This document shows, one piece after another, positions 5,298 through 26,597 of a DNA stretch of 27,001 nucleotides; position 1 is the stretch's first letter, and every line of letters starts with the position of its first letter. Both the position numbers and the translations under genes were made by a program. Source of the DNA: a virus. The notes under the pieces are model-generated. The model saw only the letters and a program-made list of their open reading frames with translations. It was not told where the DNA came from and did no database searches. The DNA lies in the IMG/VR virus record IMGVR_UViG_3300023227_000025, positions 1 through 27,001 of that record. The stretch is one strand, 5' to 3'.

Positions 5298-5593
5298 AGT
5301 GCGCAATCCTCCATTGCTGCCGTCAGGGTTGCAAAAGTGGCCTCTGCCTCTCGCAATGTCTGAAACGACCAGCCAGCGCGCCCCCACAACGTAGACGAGG
5401 GGTAAGACTCCGTTCCTTTCAGTGTCTTCTTGCCGACTGGCCAAGTGTAATCGGCCTTTGCTCGTTGGATCGTAATGACCTCGTAGCTGCAATGCCCTGC
5501 GCCCTTGCTTTTTCGGTATAGCGCATGCCCTGCGGTGCGCGTGAGTTGATCGTAATCAAAGCCGTCGTGGCGAATGTGAGTAGGTAGTTTCAT
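5294..5593 (-). CDS. Hypothetical protein
   Basis: The 99-residue protein is basic and probably mixed alpha/beta. It contains two Tyr-Asp/Lys-rich strands near the start (FDYDQLTRTAGHALYRK) and a C-terminal helix (LREAEATFATLTAAME). Both ends are ATGA overlaps with neighbouring genes, which supports the reading frame and start. I do not recognise it. Confidence 0.65.
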   Translation of the reverse strand: MKLPTHIRHDGFDYDQLTRTAGHALYRKSKGAGHCSYEVITIQRAKADYTWPVGKKTLKGTESYPSSTLWGRAGWSFQTLREAEATFATLTAAMEDCAL

Positions 5594-6314: not shown

Positions 6315-6568
6315 GCGAGCTCCGCTCTCCTAGCGCGCGCAGTGCGGCAGTAGATGCTTTGCGGATGGATGCCGAGATCGGCAGCGACGGCAGACGGACG
6401 CTCACCGTTGCCGACGCGGATCATTGCGGCGTCAACCGTGCTGGAGTCGGATCGGCTGCGGTTGCCGTCGCAAATGTCGCCAGTCCGCATCATTGTTTCC
6501 ATCTTGAGCTTGAGTGAGTTAGCGTAATCCATGCAGTGGGATTCGCGGGAGTGATTCATGTGAAGCAT
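6311..6568 (-). CDS. Small helix-turn-helix DNA-binding protein
   Basis: The protein has 85 residues. The C-terminal half contains DAAMIRVGNGERPSAVAADL then GIHPQSIYCRTARARR, matching the resolvase/Hin-type or transposase-type HTH (G.RPS.VA..LGI.PQ.IY..). The N-terminal 40 residues are polar with several Met. Its leader contains ACCGAACCCACTACGAA, a 17-bp sequence identical to the leader of the tandem array at 22330, so the two may share control. It is one candidate for a regulator of the repeated promoter elements, without direct evidence. Confidence 0.65.
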   Translation of the reverse strand: MLHMNHSRESHCMDYANSLKLKMETMMRTGDICDGNRSRSDSSTVDAAMIRVGNGERPSAVAADLGIHPQSIYCRTARARRAELA

Positions 6569-6601
6569 AGTTCGTAGTGGGTTCGGTGTGGTGCTCGTCG
6601 G

Positions 6602-13290: not shown

Positions 13291-13482
13291 ATGACAGATC
13301 AACCAGCACCAATCAAAGCAGCCCGCGTCAACCGCGTGAGGCTCAACACGTTCATCACCCCGACCACGCACGCGACGGTCAAACGGCTCAACCGCGAAGG
13401 CGTCGGACGCAGCGACGGCGCAGTCATCGACCTCGCCGTCAGTGACCTCGCATACAAGGTAGCCAAAGGGGGCAGCGAGTGA
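13291..13482 (+). CDS. Small protein, possible ribbon-helix-helix
   Basis: The 63-residue product contains RVRLNTFITPTTHATVKRLN followed by GVGRSDGAVIDLAV. The layout is a short strand, a helix, a GRSDG turn and a second helix, as in MetJ/Arc-type ribbon-helix-helix proteins (strand, helix, G.[ST].[GS].., helix). The leader is CA-rich (ACCACACACC before ATG). The 3' end contains GGGGGCAGC, which serves as ribosome-binding site for the overlapping next gene. Confidence 0.6.
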   Translation: MTDQPAPIKAARVNRVRLNTFITPTTHATVKRLNREGVGRSDGAVIDLAVSDLAYKVAKGGSE

Positions 13483-14297
13483 GCGCGGAAACAAAGGCCA
13501 CACGCCAGCCGCTATTTGCTCGACTATCAAGCATTAACGTAAGTGAGCACACGGAAAAAAAGAAGGATCTAACGTATCTTTCTTGGGCACACGCATGGCG
13601 CATATTTAAGACTGAGGCACCTGATGCAACATATGAAATAGGTAAAACCGAAAACACTCCTGGCCTCGGATTTATGTGCCATACTAAAGTCACGGCAGAG
13701 GGCGAAAGTCATGTAATGTGGCTACCTGTCATGGACGGAGCAAATAAAGCGCAGAAGATTGATAGCTATACCTATGAAACGCGTTACGGGCAGAAAACTT
13801 GCGAAGGCGCGACCATGTTTGATATCAATAAAACAATTATGCGCTGCCTAGTTAAGAATCTGGCAATGTTCGGGCTAGGCATCAATATTTACGCAGGTGA
13901 AGACTTACCCGCTGGCGAGACACCTGAGGCTGAGAAACCTGCACCTAAGGCCACGACACCAACCACACCACACCCCGCCACCATACAGAAGACGCCCGCA
14001 GAAAAAGCCGAGGCATGGGCGGCCAAACGTGCCGAGCTGAAATGGTTCGAGATTGTCAACCCGCTGGCGACTCCGGCGAAGTGGAAGGGCAAACCGCTTT
14101 CTGACCTCGCTGCTGACGGCGACATTAAGAGCCTACAGGCAATCAAGACATTCTTTGCAAAGTCAGAAAGCGCTAACACTCCCGCGCTCACCGGGCTACT
14201 CAAAAAACTAGACATGGCCATAGCGGAGGCCAAGTCCAACGAGGTGCCGACAGCTACCGATCCCGAAACAGGTAAAGAGGTCAATGCCCCGTATTAG
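13479..14297 (+). CDS. Single-strand annealing protein, DUF1071/Rad52-like (Sak-type)
   Basis: The 272-residue protein starts at GTG 13479, overlapping the upstream gene by 4 bp, with GGGGG 9 bp before it. YLSWAHAWRIFKTEAPDATY (33-52), WLPVMDGANKAQ (81-92) and the long block FDINKTIMRCLVKN with MFGLGINIYAGEDLP (114-144) are hallmark DUF1071 motifs. This family is placed with Rad52-like phage annealing proteins. Residues 150-180 are a Pro/Thr/Ala linker, and 180-272 a helical extension not normally part of the core, perhaps for contacting SSB or a nuclease. It anneals complementary ssDNA during phage recombination. No exonuclease partner was recognised nearby. Confidence 0.88.
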   Translation: MSAETKATRQPLFARLSSINVSEHTEKKKDLTYLSWAHAWRIFKTEAPDATYEIGKTENTPGLGFMCHTKVTAEGESHVMWLPVMDGANKAQKIDSYTYETRYGQKTCEGATMFDINKTIMRCLVKNLAMFGLGINIYAGEDLPAGETPEAEKPAPKATTPTTPHPATIQKTPAEKAEAWAAKRAELKWFEIVNPLATPAKWKGKPLSDLAADGDIKSLQAIKTFFAKSESANTPALTGLLKKLDMAIAEAKSNEVPTATDPETGKEVNAPY

Positions 14298-18324: not shown

Positions 18325-18503
18325 AAAAACAAATTACATGGGAGTGGCTGGAAGAGCGGTTACAATTGATCAATGCCCGCGCACTTGAAAAGTGGTGTAA
18401 TATGTATCGCGGCAAGCTCAACGATGTGAAACGCGGCAAGGTTAAGCTGACAAGCGCAGAGCTAGACACACTTACGGAAGCTATGGGGGAATTCAAGGTA
18501 TGA
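18321..18503 (+). CDS. Small protein coupled to HNH endonuclease
   Basis: The 60-residue product starts MKKQITWEWLEERLQLINAR, with a basic middle (YRGKLNDVKRGKVKL) and an acidic C-terminal helix (SAELDTLTEAMGEF). The helix - basic turn - helix pattern suggests a small HTH domain, as in the two-helix regulators that precede homing-type endonuclease genes. It overlaps the HNH gene by ATGA and shares its own promoter. Confidence 0.6.
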   Translation: MKKQITWEWLEERLQLINARALEKWCNMYRGKLNDVKRGKVKLTSAELDTLTEAMGEFKV

Positions 18504-19333
18504 CACCGCAAGAGATGACAAACGCTCTTTGCTTCGTCGGTAAGCCAAGAGGCATGGCTAAGAACCGAGGGCTGCATACTTGGGACGTGTTAAAGTATCA
18601 AGGCAAATTGAAGCATGGTAAGGAGGGCAGCCAGTATAAGGGTAGCACCTTCGGGAAGCTTAGCATACCAATGGCGTTGATACAGTCTGCCAATGGTATG
18701 AGTAACAAGGAAATTGCGAAAGGGCAGGGAGTGGCTGAGTCAACAGTAAGTCAGTTCTTGAAACCCCTTGAGATGACCAGCTTCCGACCTTACGGCAAGG
18801 GAATGCGATTCCCGACGCTTGAGAAAGCTTACTTACTAATGGAAGAGCAGAGGCTTAGGGAAAAAGCAAAGGAGTCGAAATACGACGAACGGCGTCATTG
18901 GTCGAAACATACTTCAGTTGCGACACACCGAACATCTAAGAGATACCACAGTGACCCTGCCTTTCGTCTTCGCGCATGTATCTCGTCAGGACTTCGGAAG
19001 CTAATAGGAGGCAGAACTCATAGGCAGCGCAAACTAGAGAAGTTTTGCGGATGCTCGCTTGAGTATTTGAAAGCCCATATCGAATCACAATTCACCAAGG
19101 GCATGGGATGGCATAACTCTAGTGAGTGGCATATAGATCACATCATGCCCAAGTCTTTATACGACCATGCAGATGAAGAGCAAGTAAAGCAGGCATGGAA
19201 CTGGCAGAACCTTCAGCCACTGTGGGCAGCTGATAACCTAACCAAGATGACTAAGATCACCAGACCACAGCAATATCTAGTGCTGGACATAGGTAATCGT
19301 CCCAAAAAGAAAATGGTTCCTCTAAAAGCTTAA
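18500..19333 (+). CDS. HNH endonuclease with internal HTH
   Basis: The 277-residue protein has an HTH at 67-90 (GMSNKEIAKGQGVAESTVSQ), a basic middle, then GCSLEYLKAHIESQF (184-198), MGWHNSSEWHIDHIMPKS (202-219) and WNWQNLQPLWAADNLTK (233-249). The last three blocks are the standard phage HNH layout: W.IDHI.P.S with catalytic His, then NLQPLW..dN..K. Such genes are often free-standing homing endonucleases, and location beside terminase genes is common for HNH proteins, either as mobile genes or as packaging cofactors. Codon use is more A/T-rich than that of the terminase. Confidence 0.85.
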   Translation: MTPQEMTNALCFVGKPRGMAKNRGLHTWDVLKYQGKLKHGKEGSQYKGSTFGKLSIPMALIQSANGMSNKEIAKGQGVAESTVSQFLKPLEMTSFRPYGKGMRFPTLEKAYLLMEEQRLREKAKESKYDERRHWSKHTSVATHRTSKRYHSDPAFRLRACISSGLRKLIGGRTHRQRKLEKFCGCSLEYLKAHIESQFTKGMGWHNSSEWHIDHIMPKSLYDHADEEQVKQAWNWQNLQPLWAADNLTKMTKITRPQQYLVLDIGNRPKKKMVPLKA

Positions 19334-19458: not shown

Positions 19459-19901
19459 GCAAACCAGCCACATTGACAATGACAAACATCTGCGCCGGAT
19501 GGGACGTCTCCCGCCCGACCGCAGCAATCCGATTGACCGGTGTGGACTTCGCGAAGAAGGGAAACTCCAAGCACTACAAATTGCGCGACGTGGTGAAAGC
19601 CTTTGCCGATCCATCCAAGGTTGCCCCGTCCGAAATGGGAACGACCGACCGCAAGAATCTATCGCAAGCTGAGATCCAAGAAGAGAAGCTCAAGCGCCTG
19701 CGCGGCGAATCAGTCAACGCCATCGAAGTCGAAGCCCTGTTCTGCGACATCTTCAAACGCCTCGCTGACGCCATCAAGGCGTGGGACTGGCTGCCGATCA
19801 AAGCCCGCCGCTCAATCTGCGATCAAATCCGCAGCGAAATTGAGCGGTGCGGAGGAGACGTTGCCAAGTGCAGATTCAAAGTTGCCAACCCGGAAACCTA
19901 A
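19455..19901 (+). CDS. Small terminase subunit
   Basis: The 148-residue protein starts MSKPATLTMTNICAGWDVSR. Residues 8-50 look like a winged-helix/Nu1-type DNA-binding domain (NICAGWDVSRPTAAIRL, YKLRDVVKAFAD). A linker and a charged helix (LSQAEIQEEKLKRLRGE) follow, then a region like the DUF1441/Nu1 C-terminus (EALFCDIFKRLADAIKAWDW) that contacts the large subunit. The stop overlaps the large-subunit start (TAATG). It recognises the packaging site. The assignment rests on position and domain layout. Confidence 0.75.
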   Translation: MSKPATLTMTNICAGWDVSRPTAAIRLTGVDFAKKGNSKHYKLRDVVKAFADPSKVAPSEMGTTDRKNLSQAEIQEEKLKRLRGESVNAIEVEALFCDIFKRLADAIKAWDWLPIKARRSICDQIRSEIERCGGDVAKCRFKVANPET

Positions 19902-21850
19902 TGCCCACCGCCTACCAGCCCCTAGCCCGCGCCGCTCTCCTCTGCATCATACCAGAGGTGCCGCATGTCCATCTCTGGGCGAGGGAGCACCGCATGATGA
20001 CTTCGGAAGTCACGGCTAAGGCTGGCATGTATGACATCAGTCAGACGCCATACATGAAGGAGCCGGGCGAATCAATCGACGACCCCGAGGTCACGACCAC
20101 GGTCTTGCAGCTGGCTTCGCGCCTTGGCAAGACGGAAAACTGTATTCTTAACCCGATAGGCCGGTCGATCCACCTTGACCCGCACAATATCCTCGTAGTT
20201 TACCCGACGAAAGACGCCGCTGGCAAGTTTGCGAAAGAGCAACTAATGACGACCTTCGCCGCTTCGCACGTATTCGACGGGATCGTCATGCCGACAGGCA
20301 AAGGATCAACGATGTATTCAAAGCGGTTCCTCGGCGGGCGCGTGTCCATGATTGGCGCAAACTCGCCCTCTGCTTTCCGGCAGATTCAAGCTCGATCCGT
20401 TTTTCTCGACGAGGTTGACGCTATGAACTTCTCGGAGGAAGGCGACCCGATCACACTAGCGTTTAAGCGAGCTGACAACTACGCGGACGCAACGCAAGTG
20501 GTGATGAGCACGCCTACAATCAAAGGGTTAAGCAACATCGAGAAATGGATGCTCAAGTCAGACTACCGCCAGTATTTTGTACAGTCCCCATTCACAGGCA
20601 ACTGGCATGTGCTGGACTGGGCAAACCTCGTGTTTACGGACGCGAAGAAACGTCGCACACCAGAGGCCGCATACTATGCCGACCCCGAGACCGGCGACCC
20701 ATGGACAAACGAGCAGCGCGTTGATTCGATCCAAGCGGGCGAATGGCGACCGACCCTACCGTTTACCGGCGTTCGCGGTTACCAAGCCAACGCAATGATA
20801 AGCCTTTTCCCGCACAAGAAGGGATACAAGTCTAAGTATCACCAGTGGGCGGGCGAGTTTCTGGAAGCTAAGGACGCCGGGGTTGAAGCGCTCAAGACGT
20901 GGACGAACACCTTTAAGGCTGAGACATGGGAAGACGTGCTCGGCGAGTCCGTGGACTGGCACCCCGTATACGAGCGCCGCGAGGACTACCCGACGGACAT
21001 TCTGCCGGACGGCGTGCTCTGCATTACGTTCGCGGCCGACGTGCAAGAAGACCGCATCGAGTTTGAGTGGGTCGGCTGGCGTGACGGCTTTGAATCCTAC
21101 GGGCTGCGCTACTCAACGATAGTCGGCGACACTAAGCGAGGGGAGGTATGGGAAAAGCTCAACCGTGAAATCCTGCGCACGTGGAAACACCCTGCGGGCG
21201 GCGAGCTACGCATGTCACGCGGGTTCATTGACGAAGGCCACAACACCGAGCAAGTGCGCATGTTCTGCCTCAAAATGCTCGCCAGCGGCTACGAGGTATA
21301 TCCGTCCAAAGGACTCGGGCGTGCCGGTCAAAGCGAGCCTGAGCTTGTCGCGTTTAATGCGCAGAAACGTCAAAGCGGGGTCAAGGCTCCGACCTTTAAC
21401 ATCGGGGTCAACCGCGCTAAGCGCACGATCTACAGCCACCTAAACCTTGACCCACCGGGCGCACACACCATGCACTTTACTGACCAGCCCGAGGCCGGTT
21501 ACGACGAGCACTACTTTGAGATGCTGACAAGCGAGCGCATCAAGACGCGCTACTACCTCGGCCAAGCTTACAAAGTATTTGAAAAGCCTAGCAGCTCTAC
21601 ACGAAACGAAGCGCTCGACATCCGCGCGTATGGCTACGCGGCCATCGTGTCGCTAAACCCGTCGTGGGATGGACTGCGCAAGATGATCGACAAGATGCTG
21701 CCAGCGGAGAAGGTGATGCACCTGAAGCCAGAGGCTGAGGCGACGGCGGGCGGCGACAAGTGGACGGTTAACCCACAGAAACCCACGGTAAAGCGCCCAG
21801 CGAAGACGGCGGGCAAGCGCGCGCGGGGCGGATTTATTAACAACTGGTAA
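19901..21850 (+). CDS. Large terminase, lambda gpA family
   Basis: The ATG at 19901 overlaps the small-subunit stop; an in-frame ATG at 19847 lies inside that gene. The 649-residue length matches lambda gpA (641). The P-loop is the non-classical SRLGKT at 73-78, Walker B is VFLDEVDAM with Asp170-Glu171, and MMTSEVTAKAG precedes the ATPase core. The later block CITFAADVQEDRIEFEWVGW supplies the first acidic residue of the RNase H-like nuclease, and SRGFIDEGHNTEQV a later one. It cuts concatemers and powers DNA packaging into proheads. GpA-type enzymes usually make cohesive ends. Confidence 0.93.
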   Translation: MPTAYQPLARAALLCIIPEVPHVHLWAREHRMMTSEVTAKAGMYDISQTPYMKEPGESIDDPEVTTTVLQLASRLGKTENCILNPIGRSIHLDPHNILVVYPTKDAAGKFAKEQLMTTFAASHVFDGIVMPTGKGSTMYSKRFLGGRVSMIGANSPSAFRQIQARSVFLDEVDAMNFSEEGDPITLAFKRADNYADATQVVMSTPTIKGLSNIEKWMLKSDYRQYFVQSPFTGNWHVLDWANLVFTDAKKRRTPEAAYYADPETGDPWTNEQRVDSIQAGEWRPTLPFTGVRGYQANAMISLFPHKKGYKSKYHQWAGEFLEAKDAGVEALKTWTNTFKAETWEDVLGESVDWHPVYERREDYPTDILPDGVLCITFAADVQEDRIEFEWVGWRDGFESYGLRYSTIVGDTKRGEVWEKLNREILRTWKHPAGGELRMSRGFIDEGHNTEQVRMFCLKMLASGYEVYPSKGLGRAGQSEPELVAFNAQKRQSGVKAPTFNIGVNRAKRTIYSHLNLDPPGAHTMHFTDQPEAGYDEHYFEMLTSERIKTRYYLGQAYKVFEKPSSSTRNEALDIRAYGYAAIVSLNPSWDGLRKMIDKMLPAEKVMHLKPEAEATAGGDKWTVNPQKPTVKRPAKTAGKRARGGFINNW

Positions 21851-21863
21851 AATAAACAAAAAA

Positions 21864-21906
21864 CCTGCACACAGCTATTGACACCTGCACACATTACAGC
21901 AGAGTT
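21864..21906 (+). promoter_or_regulatory. TGCACA-flanked promoter, 20-bp direct repeat
   Basis: CCTGCACACA at 21864-21873 and again at 21884-21893, exactly 20 bp apart, with TTGACA (21878-21883) between. A weak AGAGTT -10 (21901-21906) touches the ATG at 21907. Confidence 0.65.
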
Positions 21907-22209
21907 ATGGGCATGCACATTATGGATGAATTATTTAAAATCGAAGAAAGCAAATCGCCTCGGCTGAAATGGCTAGAGGCTAGTGGTATAACAACACACT
22001 ACGCGCCACACATGGGCGAAGAAGGATATACGTGGTGCGCGTGGGGCAAAGCGAACGATACCGATGGCAATGGCATCCCCGACGATCCAGAAGCTTGCGG
22101 ATACGGAAACTCAGAGGATGAGTCGATAGCTGACCTGTGCCAAAAAATAAAGAAGCCGCTTTGGAACGAAGTTTCTCTTTCTAACGAAAAAATGGATAAT
22201 GGCGAATGA
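21907..22209 (+). CDS. Small acidic hypothetical protein
   Basis: The start could be ATG 21907, 21913 or 21922 (MDELFKIEESKSPRL). The product of about 95-100 residues has WLEASGITTHYAPHMGEEGYTW and the Asp-rich loop NDTDGNGIPDD, which looks like a calcium-binding loop although the spacing does not identify a family. It ends by an ATGA overlap with a 32-codon ORF. It lies between the terminase and the tandem array under its own TGCACA promoter, so it is probably accessory. Codon use is A/T-richer than in the terminase. Confidence 0.6.
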   Translation: MGMHIMDELFKIEESKSPRLKWLEASGITTHYAPHMGEEGYTWCAWGKANDTDGNGIPDDPEACGYGNSEDESIADLCQKIKKPLWNEVSLSNEKMDNGE

Positions 22210-22304
22210 AACGCCCATACAGATCACACTTTGAGCAAGACGCCCTAGGCCGCTGGCGTCGAGTCCTCTGCTACGTGCAGCGGTCTGGCGTCCGAACCGC
22301 GTAA
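22206..22304 (+). CDS. 32-residue basic peptide
   Basis: ATG 22206 overlaps the upstream stop (ATGA), TAA at 22302-22304. The product MKRPYRSHFEQDALGRWRRV and on is basic and aromatic. Coupling to the preceding gene is the main support; it could be a chance frame. Confidence 0.35.
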   Translation: MKRPYRSHFEQDALGRWRRVLCYVQRSGVRTA

Positions 22305-22329
22305 CACACAAACCGAACCCACTACGAAA

Positions 22330-22758
22330 ATGACCGAACCCGAGAAACAGTGCAGAAAGTGCCTAGCGTTTAAACCGCTGGGAGAGTTTAATAATGATAA
22401 AAGCAAGAAGGATGGAAAGAAGCCTGCCTGCAAATGCTGCACGAGAGAATACTCCCGCCAATACCGAGCCGAAAACCCTGAGAAAGCGAGAGAATCGCAG
22501 CGCCAATACCGAGCCGAAAACCCTGAGAAAGTAAAAGAAAGCAACCGCCAATACCGAGCCGAAAACCCTGAGGAAATCAAAGAAAAAAACAGCAAACGCT
22601 ACGCCGCAAACCCTGAGAAATGGAGCGAAGCGCAGCGCAAACGCCGCGCCGTTACCCGCCACGCCCGCAACCAGTGCGCAGTAATCAACGCGCTCGATCC
22701 CAAGAAATGGGAACTGCTAGAGTCCAAGCTCAAAACATTGAACCCACTACGAAAATGA
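22330..22758 (+). CDS. Zinc-knuckle/15-residue-repeat protein, array copy 1
   Basis: The 142-residue protein starts MTEPEKQCRKCLAFKPLGEF with Cys8, Cys11 and Cys34-x-x-Cys37, a zinc knuckle like the N-terminus of proteins annotated as recombination endonuclease VII-like. Four basic helical repeats of about 15 residues follow (RQYRAENPEKARESQ and variants), then the end block RHARNQCAVINALDPKKWEL shared by all three copies. The endonuclease catalytic core (DHdH...LLC..CN) is absent, so nuclease activity is not supported; nucleic-acid binding is inferred. The last residues NPLRK are encoded by leader-like DNA (see findings). The leader ACCGAACCCACTACGAA is shared with the HTH gene at 6568. Confidence 0.8.
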   Translation: MTEPEKQCRKCLAFKPLGEFNNDKSKKDGKKPACKCCTREYSRQYRAENPEKARESQRQYRAENPEKVKESNRQYRAENPEEIKEKNSKRYAANPEKWSEAQRKRRAVTRHARNQCAVINALDPKKWELLESKLKTLNPLRK

Positions 22759-23318
22759 CCGAACCCGAGAAACAGTGCAGCAAGTGCCTAGCGTTTAAGC
22801 CGCTGGGCGAGTTCAGCAATCACAAGACGAGTAAAGGCGGGAAGCGGGCGAACTGCAAATGCTGTGCGAGCGAAGCGCAGCGCAAACGCTACGCCGCAAA
22901 CCCTGAGAAGCAGCGCGAAGACCGCCGCAAACGCCGCGCCGCAAACCCTGAGAAATACAAAGAATACGACAGCAAACGCCGCGCCGCAAACCCTGAGAAA
23001 TACAACGAAGCTGCCCGCAAACGCCACGCCGCCAACCCTGAGAAGCGCAACCAATCCCGCCGCAAACGCCACGCCGCCAACCCTGAGAAACGGAGAGAAT
23101 CCTCCCGCAAACGCTACGCCGCAAACCCTGAGGAAATCAAAGAAGACCGCCGCCAATACTACGCCGCCAACCCTGAGAAGCAGCGCGAATACCGCCGCAA
23201 ACGCTACACCCGCGCTCGCCACGCCCGCAACCAGTGCGCAGTAATCAACGCGCTCGATCCCAAGAAATGGGAACTGCTAGAGGCTAAGCTCAAAACATTG
23301 AACCCACTACGAAAATGA
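22755..23318 (+). CDS. Zinc-knuckle/15-residue-repeat protein, array copy 2
   Basis: ATG 22755 overlaps copy 1's stop as ATGA. The 187-residue protein has the same Cys8/Cys11/Cys34/Cys37 knuckle, seven repeats of 15 residues (KRYAANPEKQREDRR type) and the same end block, ending NPLRK. It is 135 bp (three repeat units) longer than copy 1. Its first 130 bp differ from copy 3 by about one base, which shows recent duplication or gene conversion. The repeats are strongly basic with an NPEK helix cap in each unit, which fits binding to DNA or RNA. Confidence 0.8.
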   Translation: MTEPEKQCSKCLAFKPLGEFSNHKTSKGGKRANCKCCASEAQRKRYAANPEKQREDRRKRRAANPEKYKEYDSKRRAANPEKYNEAARKRHAANPEKRNQSRRKRHAANPEKRRESSRKRYAANPEEIKEDRRQYYAANPEKQREYRRKRYTRARHARNQCAVINALDPKKWELLEAKLKTLNPLRK

Positions 23319-23845
23319 CCGAACCCGAGAAGCAGTGCAGCAAGTGCCTAGCGTTTAAGCCGCTGGGCGAGTTCAGCAATCACAAGACGAGTAAAGGCGG
23401 GAAGCGGGCGAACTGCAAATGCTGTGCGAGCGAAGCGCAGCGCCAACGCCGCGCCGCAAACCTTGAGAAATACAGAGTTCGCGAACGCCAATACTGCGCC
23501 GCGAACTCTGAGAAAATCAACGAATGCCGCCGCCAACGCCGCGCCGCAAACCCTGAGAAAATCAACGAAGCCCAGCGCCAACGCTACGCCGCCAACCCTG
23601 AGAAAATCAACGAAGCCCGCCGCCAATACAGCGCCGCAAACCGTGAGAAAATCAACGAATACGCCCGCCAATACCGCGCCGCCAACCCTGAGAAAATCAA
23701 CGAAGCCCAGCGCAAACACGACGCCGCCGAACGCCACGCCCGCAACCAGTGCGCAATAATCAACGCGCTCGATCCCAAGAAATGGGAACTTTTACAGTCC
23801 AAGCTCAAAGCTATGGACTCAACCAAAACCAAAGAAAAGGAATAA
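23315..23845 (+). CDS. Zinc-knuckle/15-residue-repeat protein, array copy 3
   Basis: ATG 23315 overlaps copy 2's stop as ATGA. The 176-residue protein has the same knuckle and six repeats, most of the form RQRRAANPEKINEAQ; this copy is enriched in 'EKINE'. It keeps the block RHARNQCAIINALDPKKWEL but ends DSTKTKEKE instead of NPLRK, so it probably carries the original 3' end. One unit has AANSEK, one AANLEK and one AANREK in place of AANPEK. One base separates its stop from the next ATG. Confidence 0.8.
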   Translation: MTEPEKQCSKCLAFKPLGEFSNHKTSKGGKRANCKCCASEAQRQRRAANLEKYRVRERQYCAANSEKINECRRQRRAANPEKINEAQRQRYAANPEKINEARRQYSAANREKINEYARQYRAANPEKINEAQRKHDAAERHARNQCAIINALDPKKWELLQSKLKAMDSTKTKEKE

Positions 23846-23846
23846 C

Positions 23847-24461
23847 ATGACTACGGAAATAACAAAAACAACGAAAACAGAAGCTCGTCTCAAAGAACTA
23901 TCGCTACAAGAGTTGATCGAAGATTGCTCACTATGCGCGGCAAACATCGCAGACAGCACCGTCGAACTCGGCGGGCTACTCAGCGAAATAAGTCGCCGCT
24001 ATGGGCACGACGGAATCAACATGACGTGCGAGACACTCGGGCTAGCTCGACCCCTTGCGAGCAAGCTCGTGGCCTGCTATCGCGGAGTAATGCACCCCGC
24101 AATCGCCATTGGCACCGTATCGCATTGCAGGCAGCTCGAAAAGCTCACGATGGAAGAGCAGACCGACATCATCGAGAAGGGCGTGCCATACCTCGAAAAG
24201 CTCGGCAAAACGCACGCTACCAAGCGCGTCCCGCTGGAAAAGCTCAGTCCAAAGCAGATCGCGCAAGTCTTCGCTGGCGACAAGATACGCTCTGAGGATG
24301 AGCAGTTCCAGTTTCTCAAAGAGCTGGCTGCCGAGCCAAAGAAGGAAAAGCCCGTGACAGGACACAAGCCGGACTACGAGGTAAAGAACGGTAAGCTCGT
24401 GGTCAACCGCCCGCACAATTTCACCCTGCGCGAGCTGCTCGCCCTCACGGCGCAACTGTAG
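23847..24461 (+). CDS. Hypothetical helical protein
   Basis: The 204-residue protein starts MTTEITKTTKTEARLKELSL. Residues 20-85 (LIEDCSLCAANIADSTVELG, INMTCETLGLARPLASKLVA) form an all-helical region that could hold an HTH. The middle is charged, and the end LVVNRPHNFTLRELLALTAQ is a small strand-helix. It is followed by a terminator. Gene position between the array and the joiner gives no function; a packaging regulator is possible. No family recognised. Confidence 0.65.
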   Translation: MTTEITKTTKTEARLKELSLQELIEDCSLCAANIADSTVELGGLLSEISRRYGHDGINMTCETLGLARPLASKLVACYRGVMHPAIAIGTVSHCRQLEKLTMEEQTDIIEKGVPYLEKLGKTHATKRVPLEKLSPKQIAQVFAGDKIRSEDEQFQFLKELAAEPKKEKPVTGHKPDYEVKNGKLVVNRPHNFTLRELLALTAQL

Positions 24462-24564: not shown

Positions 24565-25113
24565 ATGGCAACCGCAACGACCGAACCGCTTGAGCTCACG
24601 GCAGGCTTTACATCTAACTGGGATAAAACCCTCAGTGACTACTTGCCGTCGCTCTACACGCTTGAATACACGCTCGCGCCGATAGCTGGCGGCGAAGTGC
24701 TGGGCATCACGGCGACAAGCACGCTGGACACTTTCAATCTTCGTCTGACGCCGACCATCACCAGCGGGTTGTCGGCAGGAACGTATCAGCTTATTGGATA
24801 CGTCAAGGACATCGCAACAAGCGGCGAAACGACCACCGCACGCGTATCGACAACCCGCACCACTGTCCTCGCCGCTGTCGATTCGATAGTTGACCGCCGA
24901 ACATTTGCTGAGGAAATCGTAGCGGACTTGCAAGCAACCTACGCAAAGCTCGCAAAGAACACGATCAGCAGCGCAACCGTGAACGGCCGCACCTACACGA
25001 AGAAAGACTTAATGGCTATCCGCGAAGAAATCGCATTCTTCCAGAATAAGGTGCGCTCCGAAATGGGAGGGGCAACCCGCCGCATCGCCGTAACCTTCCC
25101 ACCAGTTAGCTAA
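24565..25113 (+). CDS. Head-tail joining protein candidate (gpW-like C-terminus)
   Basis: The ATG at 24565 is chosen because it directly follows the palindromic element; a TTG at 24541 lies inside that element. The 182-residue protein has a beta-rich N-terminal domain (LELTAGFTSNWDKTLSDYLP, TLEYTLAPIAGGEV) and a C-terminal helical part, VADLQATYAKLAKNTISSAT then YTKKDLMAIREEIAFFQNKV. The C-terminal part resembles lambda gpW, with its helix, hairpin turn and helix ending in an arginine-rich strand. Position between terminase and portal agrees with gpW. The N-terminal extension is unusual. The stop overlaps the portal start (TAATG). A 19-bp element copy (24783-24801) is inside the coding sequence. 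Confidence 0.65.
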   Translation: MATATTEPLELTAGFTSNWDKTLSDYLPSLYTLEYTLAPIAGGEVLGITATSTLDTFNLRLTPTITSGLSAGTYQLIGYVKDIATSGETTTARVSTTRTTVLAAVDSIVDRRTFAEEIVADLQATYAKLAKNTISSATVNGRTYTKKDLMAIREEIAFFQNKVRSEMGGATRRIAVTFPPVS

Positions 25114-26597
25114 TGGAATTTCACATACCTTTTACCCGCAAAAAAAAGCCTACTGTTACGCGCCAGTTTAACGCCGCTCAGCATACGCGCCTTACTGCCG
25201 ACTGGATATCGTCGCCTACGAGCGCAGACGCTGAGCTGAAGGGCAACATCGCCACTATCAGGGAGCGCGCCCGCGACCTAGAGCGCAACGAAACCTACGT
25301 AGAAAAGTTTTTGTTTGAGCTGGAAAACAACATCGTCGGAACAGGTATCAAACTCCGCAGCGAGCCGCGCAACCCTGACGGCAAGACCGACGCGCTCGCC
25401 AAGCAAGCTATTGAGTGGGCGTGGTATCAACAGGGACAACGCGAGAATTACACTGTCACCGGGCAGCAAACTGAGCAGAGCGCCGACCGTCTCGCGATCC
25501 GAAGCATCGCGCGGGATGGCGAAGTTCTCGTCCGCATTATTCGCGGCGCTCCAAACAAGTTCCGGTTTGCAGTTCAGCTGCTTGAGCCTGATCACCTTGA
25601 CGCGACGTTCAGCGGTAAAGCGCCGAACGGAAATGAGATACGAATGGGCGTAGAGCTGAATGAGTGGAAAATGCCGATGGCATATTGGATAGACATCAAC
25701 CACCCAGGCGACTACTACCAGACGATGCAGACAGGCGGGCAACGCCGCACACGCATTCCGGCTGACGAAATGCTGATGCCGTTTCGCAGCAACCGCGTAG
25801 AGCAAACGCGCGGCGTGTCATGGCTCGTAACGGCAATGAATCACCTCAAAATGCTCGGCGGATACGAAGAGGCCGAACTCGTGGCCGCCCGCACCGCCGC
25901 CGCTAAAATGGGCTTCTTCGTGAGCGACGGCACCGACTACGGGCAAACCGATCCAAGCAACCCGAACGCCGATTTCTCGATGGAAGCCGAGCCGGGTATG
26001 TTTGACCAGATACCGCAGGGGTTAAAATTTCAATCATGGGATCCGCAGCACCCGACCACCGCATTTGAGGGATTCCGTAAGGCGATGCTGCGCCGCGTTG
26101 CTTCCGGCTTAACCATGAGCTACAACACGCTCGCCAACGACCTTGAAGGGGTAAACTACAGCAGCCTGCGCGACGGCAAGATTACCGAGCGCGACGGCTA
26201 CAAGGTAATACAGGACTGGATGATCGCCACTTACAAGCGCCCTATCTATCTAGCTTGGATTAGCTGGGCAATCGACACCGGACAGATCAAGATGAATCGC
26301 GGGATTGGCTCGCCGTTACCCGCCGCCAAGATGGAGAAATTCACGGAGCACTCGTTTATCCCTCGCCGCTGGCAGTGGGTTGACCCGCTCAAGGACATGA
26401 AGGCTATGGAGCTTGCGCGCAAAAACAATTGGACATCTGACAGCCAGATTGTGAGCGAGCAAGGTTATGATTTGACTGAACTTTACGACCAACAAGCAGA
26501 AGACGAAGAGTTACGGATTCAAAAGGGCATCGAGAAACCTATTGACAAATCACTAACAAGTATCCAGAAACTGGATACACCACCAGCAAGCCAATGA
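25113..26597 (+). CDS. Portal protein, lambda gpB family
   Basis: The 494-residue protein shows the Phage_portal_2 pattern: RERARDLERNETYVEKFLFE near the start, then NIVGTGIKLRSEP, SIARDGEVLVRIIRG, FRFAVQLLEPDHLDA, RIPADEMLMPFRSNRVEQTR with GVSWLVTAMNHLKML, and MSYNTLANDLEGVNYSSLRD. The last block is the most characteristic of gpB-like portals. The dodecameric portal forms the entry vertex and receives the terminase. Length is close to lambda gpB (533). The stop overlaps the protease start as ATGA. Its 3' end carries the perfect 19-bp dyad at 26560. Confidence 0.93.
   Translation: MEFHIPFTRKKKPTVTRQFNAAQHTRLTADWISSPTSADAELKGNIATIRERARDLERNETYVEKFLFELENNIVGTGIKLRSEPRNPDGKTDALAKQAIEWAWYQQGQRENYTVTGQQTEQSADRLAIRSIARDGEVLVRIIRGAPNKFRFAVQLLEPDHLDATFSGKAPNGNEIRMGVELNEWKMPMAYWIDINHPGDYYQTMQTGGQRRTRIPADEMLMPFRSNRVEQTRGVSWLVTAMNHLKMLGGYEEAELVAARTAAAKMGFFVSDGTDYGQTDPSNPNADFSMEAEPGMFDQIPQGLKFQSWDPQHPTTAFEGFRKAMLRRVASGLTMSYNTLANDLEGVNYSSLRDGKITERDGYKVIQDWMIATYKRPIYLAWISWAIDTGQIKMNRGIGSPLPAAKMEKFTEHSFIPRRWQWVDPLKDMKAMELARKNNWTSDSQIVSEQGYDLTELYDQQAEDEELRIQKGIEKPIDKSLTSIQKLDTPPASQ
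26560..26578. promoter_or_regulatory. 19-bp element, perfect 7-bp-arm dyad
   Basis: GTATCCAGAAACTGGATAC has GTATCCA and TGGATAC arms around five bases, the best palindrome of the family. It lies inside the portal 3' end, 15 bp before the protease ATG at 26594. Confidence 0.6.

Follow-up and report, generated by a model that had tools for sequence, protein, structure and literature searches.

Analysis of a 27,001-nt stretch of viral DNA (IMG/VR record IMGVR_UViG_3300023227_000025, positions 1 to 27,001; here called the window) revealed an array of three consecutive genes that are tandem paralogs of a gene carried once in relatives, between the genes for the terminase large subunit (terL) and a 204-amino-acid (aa) protein. 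The array is best explained by duplication of the gene together with its leader, formation of a third copy by exchange between copies, and a role of the products as nucleic-acid-binding rods devoid of a nuclease, a combined reading to which we assign a probability of roughly 0.55. The origin by duplication and exchange is the well-supported part of it. The window is a complete IMG/VR contig from environmental sequencing, and its terminase and portal genes point to a tailed phage.

The three genes (Table 1) share N- and C-terminal blocks and are joined by ATGA overlaps at positions 22755 to 22758 (copies 1 and 2) and 23315 to 23318 (copies 2 and 3), and the open reading frame (ORF) coordinates agree with the initial annotation. 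Also in line with that annotation, copies 1, 2, and 3 contain four, seven, and six 15-residue units, each recognized by its N[P/R/S/L]E[K/E] motif and spaced by exactly 45 bp throughout, and the repeats were picked up by independent tandem-repeat detection as well. An identical three-copy arrangement is present in four other IMG/VR contigs (L005 to L008), and L009 spans copy 3; since four further contigs carry the same three-copy order, the array is not an assembly accident. Compared with L005 and L006 (6.2 and 7.7 kb shared), the window shows three differences only, all within copy 3.

Table 1. Features of the array locus and of the Sak gene, in window positions
Feature	Position	Strand	Remarks
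Sak single-strand annealing protein	13479..14297	+	PF06378, E 6.9e-42
Terminase large subunit (GpA family)	19847..21850	+	Left flank of the locus
Small basic ORF preceding copy 1	22206..22304	+	32 aa in the window; L029 has 48 aa, L010 a remnant of the tail
Copy 1 leader, SD-less (ACCGAACCCACTACGAAA)	22312..22329	+	Ancestral non-coding position; same or near-same leader in L010, L029, L013
Copy 1	22330..22758	+	ORF, 142 aa; N-block 22330-22443; four 45-bp units 22444-22623; C-block 22657-22758, end NPLRK-stop
Copy 2 leader	22740..22754	+	Doubles as copy 1 C-terminal codons NPLRK
Copy 2	22755..23318	+	ORF, 187 aa; N-block 22755-22868; seven units 22869-23183; C-block 23217-23318, end NPLRK-stop
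Copy 3 leader	23300..23314	+	Doubles as copy 2 C-terminal codons NPLRK
Copy 3	23315..23845	+	ORF, 176 aa; N-block 23315-23428; six units 23429-23698; C-block 23732-23845, end DSTKTKEKE
204-aa gene	23847..24461	+	Conserved downstream, right flank in relatives

Between terL and the 204-aa gene, the window holds a 100-aa ORF, the 32-aa basic ORF, which was apparently shortened by deletions beside the array, and the three array genes. The site after terL is a cargo hotspot: L010 carries three ORFs at 1199 to 2652 (a 112-aa ORF, an HTH protein, and an RNA ligase matching PF09414 with an E value of 1.4e-18), the window has the 100-aa ORF at 21851 to 22209, and L029 has the 48-aa ORF alone at 5356 to 5565. 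An operator-like inverted repeat, ACGCACAAATGCGTAA ... TTACGCATTTGTGCGT, lies upstream of the L010 cargo genes with the HTH protein (~1217 to 1265), and promoter-like TTGACACCTGCACACATTACAGCAGAG follows terL in the window (21878 to 21904), and the corresponding position in L029 and L030 holds closely similar sequences. Further observations concern other parts of the window. An HTH-plus-HNH protein is encoded at 18500 to 19333, and its HNH half is 38% identical to the C-terminal half of the Methanosarcina virus MetMV protein AZF89935. A second coding tandem repeat (701 to 1069; 48-bp period, ~7.7 copies) lies in the ORF from 50 to 1483 and consists of CSSGEQTAGNAGTYIEC-type units. In L007, 37 differences are confined to the equivalent of window positions 24704 to 25850, with the rest of 6.4 kb almost identical, which may reflect a recombination tract or an assembly chimera.

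Relatives whose flanking genes are 93 to 95% identical carry one gene only, with three units in L010 to L012 and eight units in L029, so that the tandem copies, which mark a segmental amplification, are missing from these close relatives. In L013 and L030, one leader and start are present, and the sequence ends inside the gene. Across relatives, the copy number is 1 or 3 and the unit number 3, 4, 6, 7, or 8. The initial annotation regarded both numbers as free to change; they do vary between relatives, but the 4/7/6 pattern is constant in the four further assemblies spanning the array, which argues against free change on that time scale.

The leader before copy 1 links the three genes with this earlier state. 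Its 21-nt sequence, GAACCCACTACGAAAATGACC, occurs exactly at 22315, 22740, and 23300, with 0 occurrences expected in shuffled sequences even when three mismatches were allowed. As had been noticed initially, it recurs at the ends of copies 1 and 2, where it is read as NPLRK and a stop, and copy 3 ends differently, in DSTKTKEKE; before copy 1 it is non-coding. Instead of three ancient, diverged genes lacking leader identity, the relatives have the leader upstream of a single gene (exact in L010, slightly altered in L029 and L013), and it is non-coding in each. DSTKTKEKE is the end of every complete single copy, and NPLRK is confined to copies 1 and 2; because complete single copies terminate like copy 3, NPLRK is the derived end. 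These outgroups, with their non-coding leader and never an NPLRK end, support the proposed conversion of leader DNA into coding sequence. At the nucleotide level, the comparison shows that duplication carried the SD-less leader of the gene into the preceding gene, where it supplies the last codons.

The leader also occurs outside the array and represents a recurrent SD-less start leader of the phage: an exact 17-nt copy, ACCGAACCCACTACGAA, stands directly before an unrelated 85-aa minus-strand ORF starting at 6568 (window positions 6568 to 6587), which contains an HTH-like stretch. Most starts of the phage lack a strong Shine-Dalgarno motif, and the leaders before them tend to be A/C-rich, with a G content of 0.18, compared with 0.26 at the remaining ATGs (p = 3e-4). 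There are nine instances of ACTACG at most 8 nt from an ATG versus 1.0 expected; the array accounts for three of them, and some fall within genes. The overlaps may couple translation of the copies, as claimed initially, but every copy has its own leader and SD-less starts are general in the phage, so that independent initiation fits the arrangement equally well. Coupling between the copies is plausible but not required.

Comparison of the end blocks pointed to exchange between the copies. In the 114-nt N-block, copies 2 and 3 differ at 1 site and copies 1 and 2 at 25, and L013 has the block most similar to that of copy 1 (91%). In the C-block, copies 1 and 2 share 97.8% identity, and copy 3 is nearest to L010 (95.6%). 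At sites that distinguish copy 1 from copy 3, copy 2 agrees with copy 3 at 25 of 26 positions in the N-block and with copy 1 at all 9 in the C-block (p = 1.4e-7). The aligned sites show copy 2 as a mosaic of a copy-3-type N-block and a copy-1-type C-block, as would be expected from unequal recombination. An ACATT junction is common to both derived ends, which would follow from later copying of a single junction. The first junction reads AAGCTCAAA, ACATT, GAACCC, with a possible CAAA match to the leader plus the filler ACATT, which the duplication model does not account for.

One clean unequal crossover as the whole story fits the end blocks, yet the repeat tract of copy 2 follows neither parent: it is unlike copy 3 near its N-terminal end and unlike copy 1 near its C-terminal end, except for a shared NPEEIKE in the second-last unit. 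Units are more alike within a copy than between copies (p = 4e-4). As the tract of copy 2 matches neither parent, the tracts must, in addition, have undergone replacement or diversification. The notion of a simple recent tandem duplication thus needs revision: the end blocks are 98 to 99% alike in crosswise pairs, whereas the repeat tracts, only ~70 to 75% alike between copies, call for recombination or diversification. We propose that the third gene arose when the two members of an earlier array underwent unequal, homology-driven exchange, in which the conserved N- and C-blocks would serve as homology arms and the tracts between them would be swapped or diversified. The Sak annealing protein encoded in the window would be the likely agent of this exchange.

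Each protein is predicted to comprise a C4 zinc finger, a kinked rod built from one 14-residue helix per unit, and a short helical C-block. The motif had been described as a Cys knuckle, but the invariant residues C8, C11, C34, and C37 are spaced CX2C-X22-CX2C with no conserved finger His, which does not fit the retroviral CCHC type (CX2CX4HX4C). N11 is invariant in every unit. AlphaFold models of copies 1 and 2, based on a 12-sequence alignment (mean pLDDT, 87.0 and 91.8), display a small beta finger around the four cysteines, then helices of 14 residues with one break per unit, and finally a short helical tail, with one extra helix per extra unit. Low pTM values (0.49 and 0.47) leave the overall rod shape uncertain. 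The net charge is +17 to +33 per protein, with a pI of 9.8 to 10.4.

With a CX2C-X~22-CX2C finger followed by 15-residue N[PR]EK units, the copies have the composition of a finger-plus-NPEK-repeat arm, and residues 2 to 114 of copy 1 match the PHROG 2340 profile (E = 4.7e-14). In other proteins, this arm is joined to EndoVII (L049 and L055) or to another HNH class (MetMV and L048), and it occurs with no recognized nuclease in L046, L081, PSonyx gp78, and Pasteurella phage APQ42443. Named structural relatives of the models are mostly viral HNH/endonuclease proteins. Among solved structures, searches by sequence gave nothing but a designed protein at E = 0.47, and searches by fold gave no significant match (best E = 0.76, Hpy99I); the copies have no match in NCBIfam, and nothing relevant was found in the literature on NPEK repeats in phages. 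The C-block is kept in every complete relative; homologs of this end block were absent from named phages even at E = 10, and those in IMG/VR belong to the same phage group only. The window family has no relatives in cellular genomes, where a made-up arm consensus as the query retrieved four distant relatives, and the only plasmid match to the arm was a weak one, in Flammeovirga.

Pfam searches of the copies gave no match to PF02945 (Endonuclease VII) or HNH at E values up to 1, although Pfam also misses the HNH class of MetMV, and the positive controls L049 and L055 matched PF02945 at 1.7e-24 and 5.6e-23. The models of copies 1 and 2 contain finger, helical units, and short tail only, with no conserved nuclease core, in agreement with the initial view that the endonuclease VII core is lacking. 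Considering charge, family, and architecture, the copies are most likely nucleic-acid binders that do not cleave. They would bind through the finger-plus-helix arm, as is presumably the case in phage HNH/EndoVII proteins, with no nuclease of their own; unit number would set the contact length and copy number the dose. Acidic residues are also numerous (21 to 24 per copy), and the rod may have a protein-protein role.

Variation among the units bears on further readings. Change rates at codon positions 1, 2, and 3 are 0.31, 0.29, and 0.20, with the third base mostly kept, and variable unit positions include 3, 4, 8, and 15; clustering of hypervariable positions on a helical wheel was not significant (p = 0.08). 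In the units, pN (0.28) exceeds pS (0.21), and pN/pS of ~0.2 to 0.4 in divergent pairs indicates constraint on the N-block. The pattern is suggestive of diversification; we do not claim positive selection, as the units are paralogous and the third-base bias is strong. The lack of a nuclease core, variable unit number and sequence, and the excess of pN would also be expected if the copies were decaying remnants of an HNH/EndoVII gene whose repeats drift freely. This is quite improbable given that each of the six sequences is open, that neither the four cysteines nor the N11 of any unit varies, and that the N-block constraint is accompanied by a C-block kept in every complete relative. The concentration of changes at codon positions 1 and 2, leaving variable codons mostly NNC, recalls targeting by a diversity-generating retroelement. 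No RVT_1/reverse transcriptase was found, however, in seven records (the window, a left-overlapping contig, and five relatives' records, all fragments), whereas the same search was positive in control genomes, and no template repeat occurred among the repeats of the array region; the NNC appearance is accounted for by a preference for C-ending codons. This idea is largely refuted and exceedingly improbable. It is a rather remote prospect that the units form a modular recognition rod, in which a near-fixed scaffold (E2, R5, A9, N11, E13, and K14) would carry hypervariable positions 1, 3, 4, 8, and 15 that select the target, specificity being varied by swapping repeat tracts between conserved end blocks, with several versions kept per array.

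Two other readings concern the locus as a whole. MetMV AZF89935 unites a copy-like N-terminal half (38 to 42%, E down to 3e-21) with a C-terminal half like the window HNH (38%, E = 4e-26), which makes it attractive to assume that the copies act in trans with the phage's own HNH nuclease, arm and nuclease being split here and fused elsewhere. Yet the two genes do not co-occur in relatives: the HNH gene is missing from its site before terS in L029, L030, and L031/L032, which are single-copy lineages, and the rest of those fragments did not yield it either. The arm gene thus persists on its own, and such a partnership is improbable. The array could instead be a gene-dosage (accordion) amplification of a host-takeover or counter-defense gene, with extra copies selected for a greater supply of the protein against a host target. 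Tandem amplification of counter-defense genes through short homologies is known in phages, as for T4 tifA amplified against toxIN (PMC9391042) and SegB-driven amplification in T6 (PMC13096335), and the stretch from terL to the 204-aa gene, a cargo hotspot, differs in gene content in each relative. Experimentally amplified copies are new, however, and the low identity of the tracts here implies that the copies have been separate or diversified for longer; moreover, no family of a defense-system library, which is without counter-defense coverage, matches the copies. We regard this accordion reading as unlikely and favor the nuclease-less binding rod that arose by duplication and exchange.

Finger-plus-helix arms occur on many phage HNH/EndoVII proteins. 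The locus offers a natural series of 3, 4, 6, 7, and 8 units with similar ends and no nuclease to confuse assays of contact length and affinity. It is also a clear example of a leader turned into coding sequence by duplication, with outgroups preserving the earlier state.

Several known systems share parts of this arrangement. With T4-like segmental amplification (tifA and SegB), the array has tandem copies of a phage gene in common, but it is a natural array with diverged tracts. A likeness to the Stc1-type finger (PF12898; PDB 2luy) is weak and restricted to the finger: the relatives L055 and L021 match below the cutoff (E = 3e-4 and 9e-4), Foldseek ranks 2luy third, and the window copies have no PF12898 match. 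Corynebacterium phage PSonyx gp78 (annotated as HNH) and the L081 gene from a beta-proteobacterial MAG likewise combine a finger and several NPEK units with a short tail that is not a nuclease, but they are not tandem in the stretches seen, and their tails are unrelated (that of PSonyx is Myb/SANT-like by eye). With the PHROG 2340/1035 phage HNH/EndoVII-type proteins, such as MetMV AZF89935, the copies share the finger and the 15-residue helical units by profile, BLAST, and predicted fold; unlike those proteins, they have no nuclease domain, carry the group-specific C-block RHARNQCAVINALDPKKWELL, and stand three in tandem.
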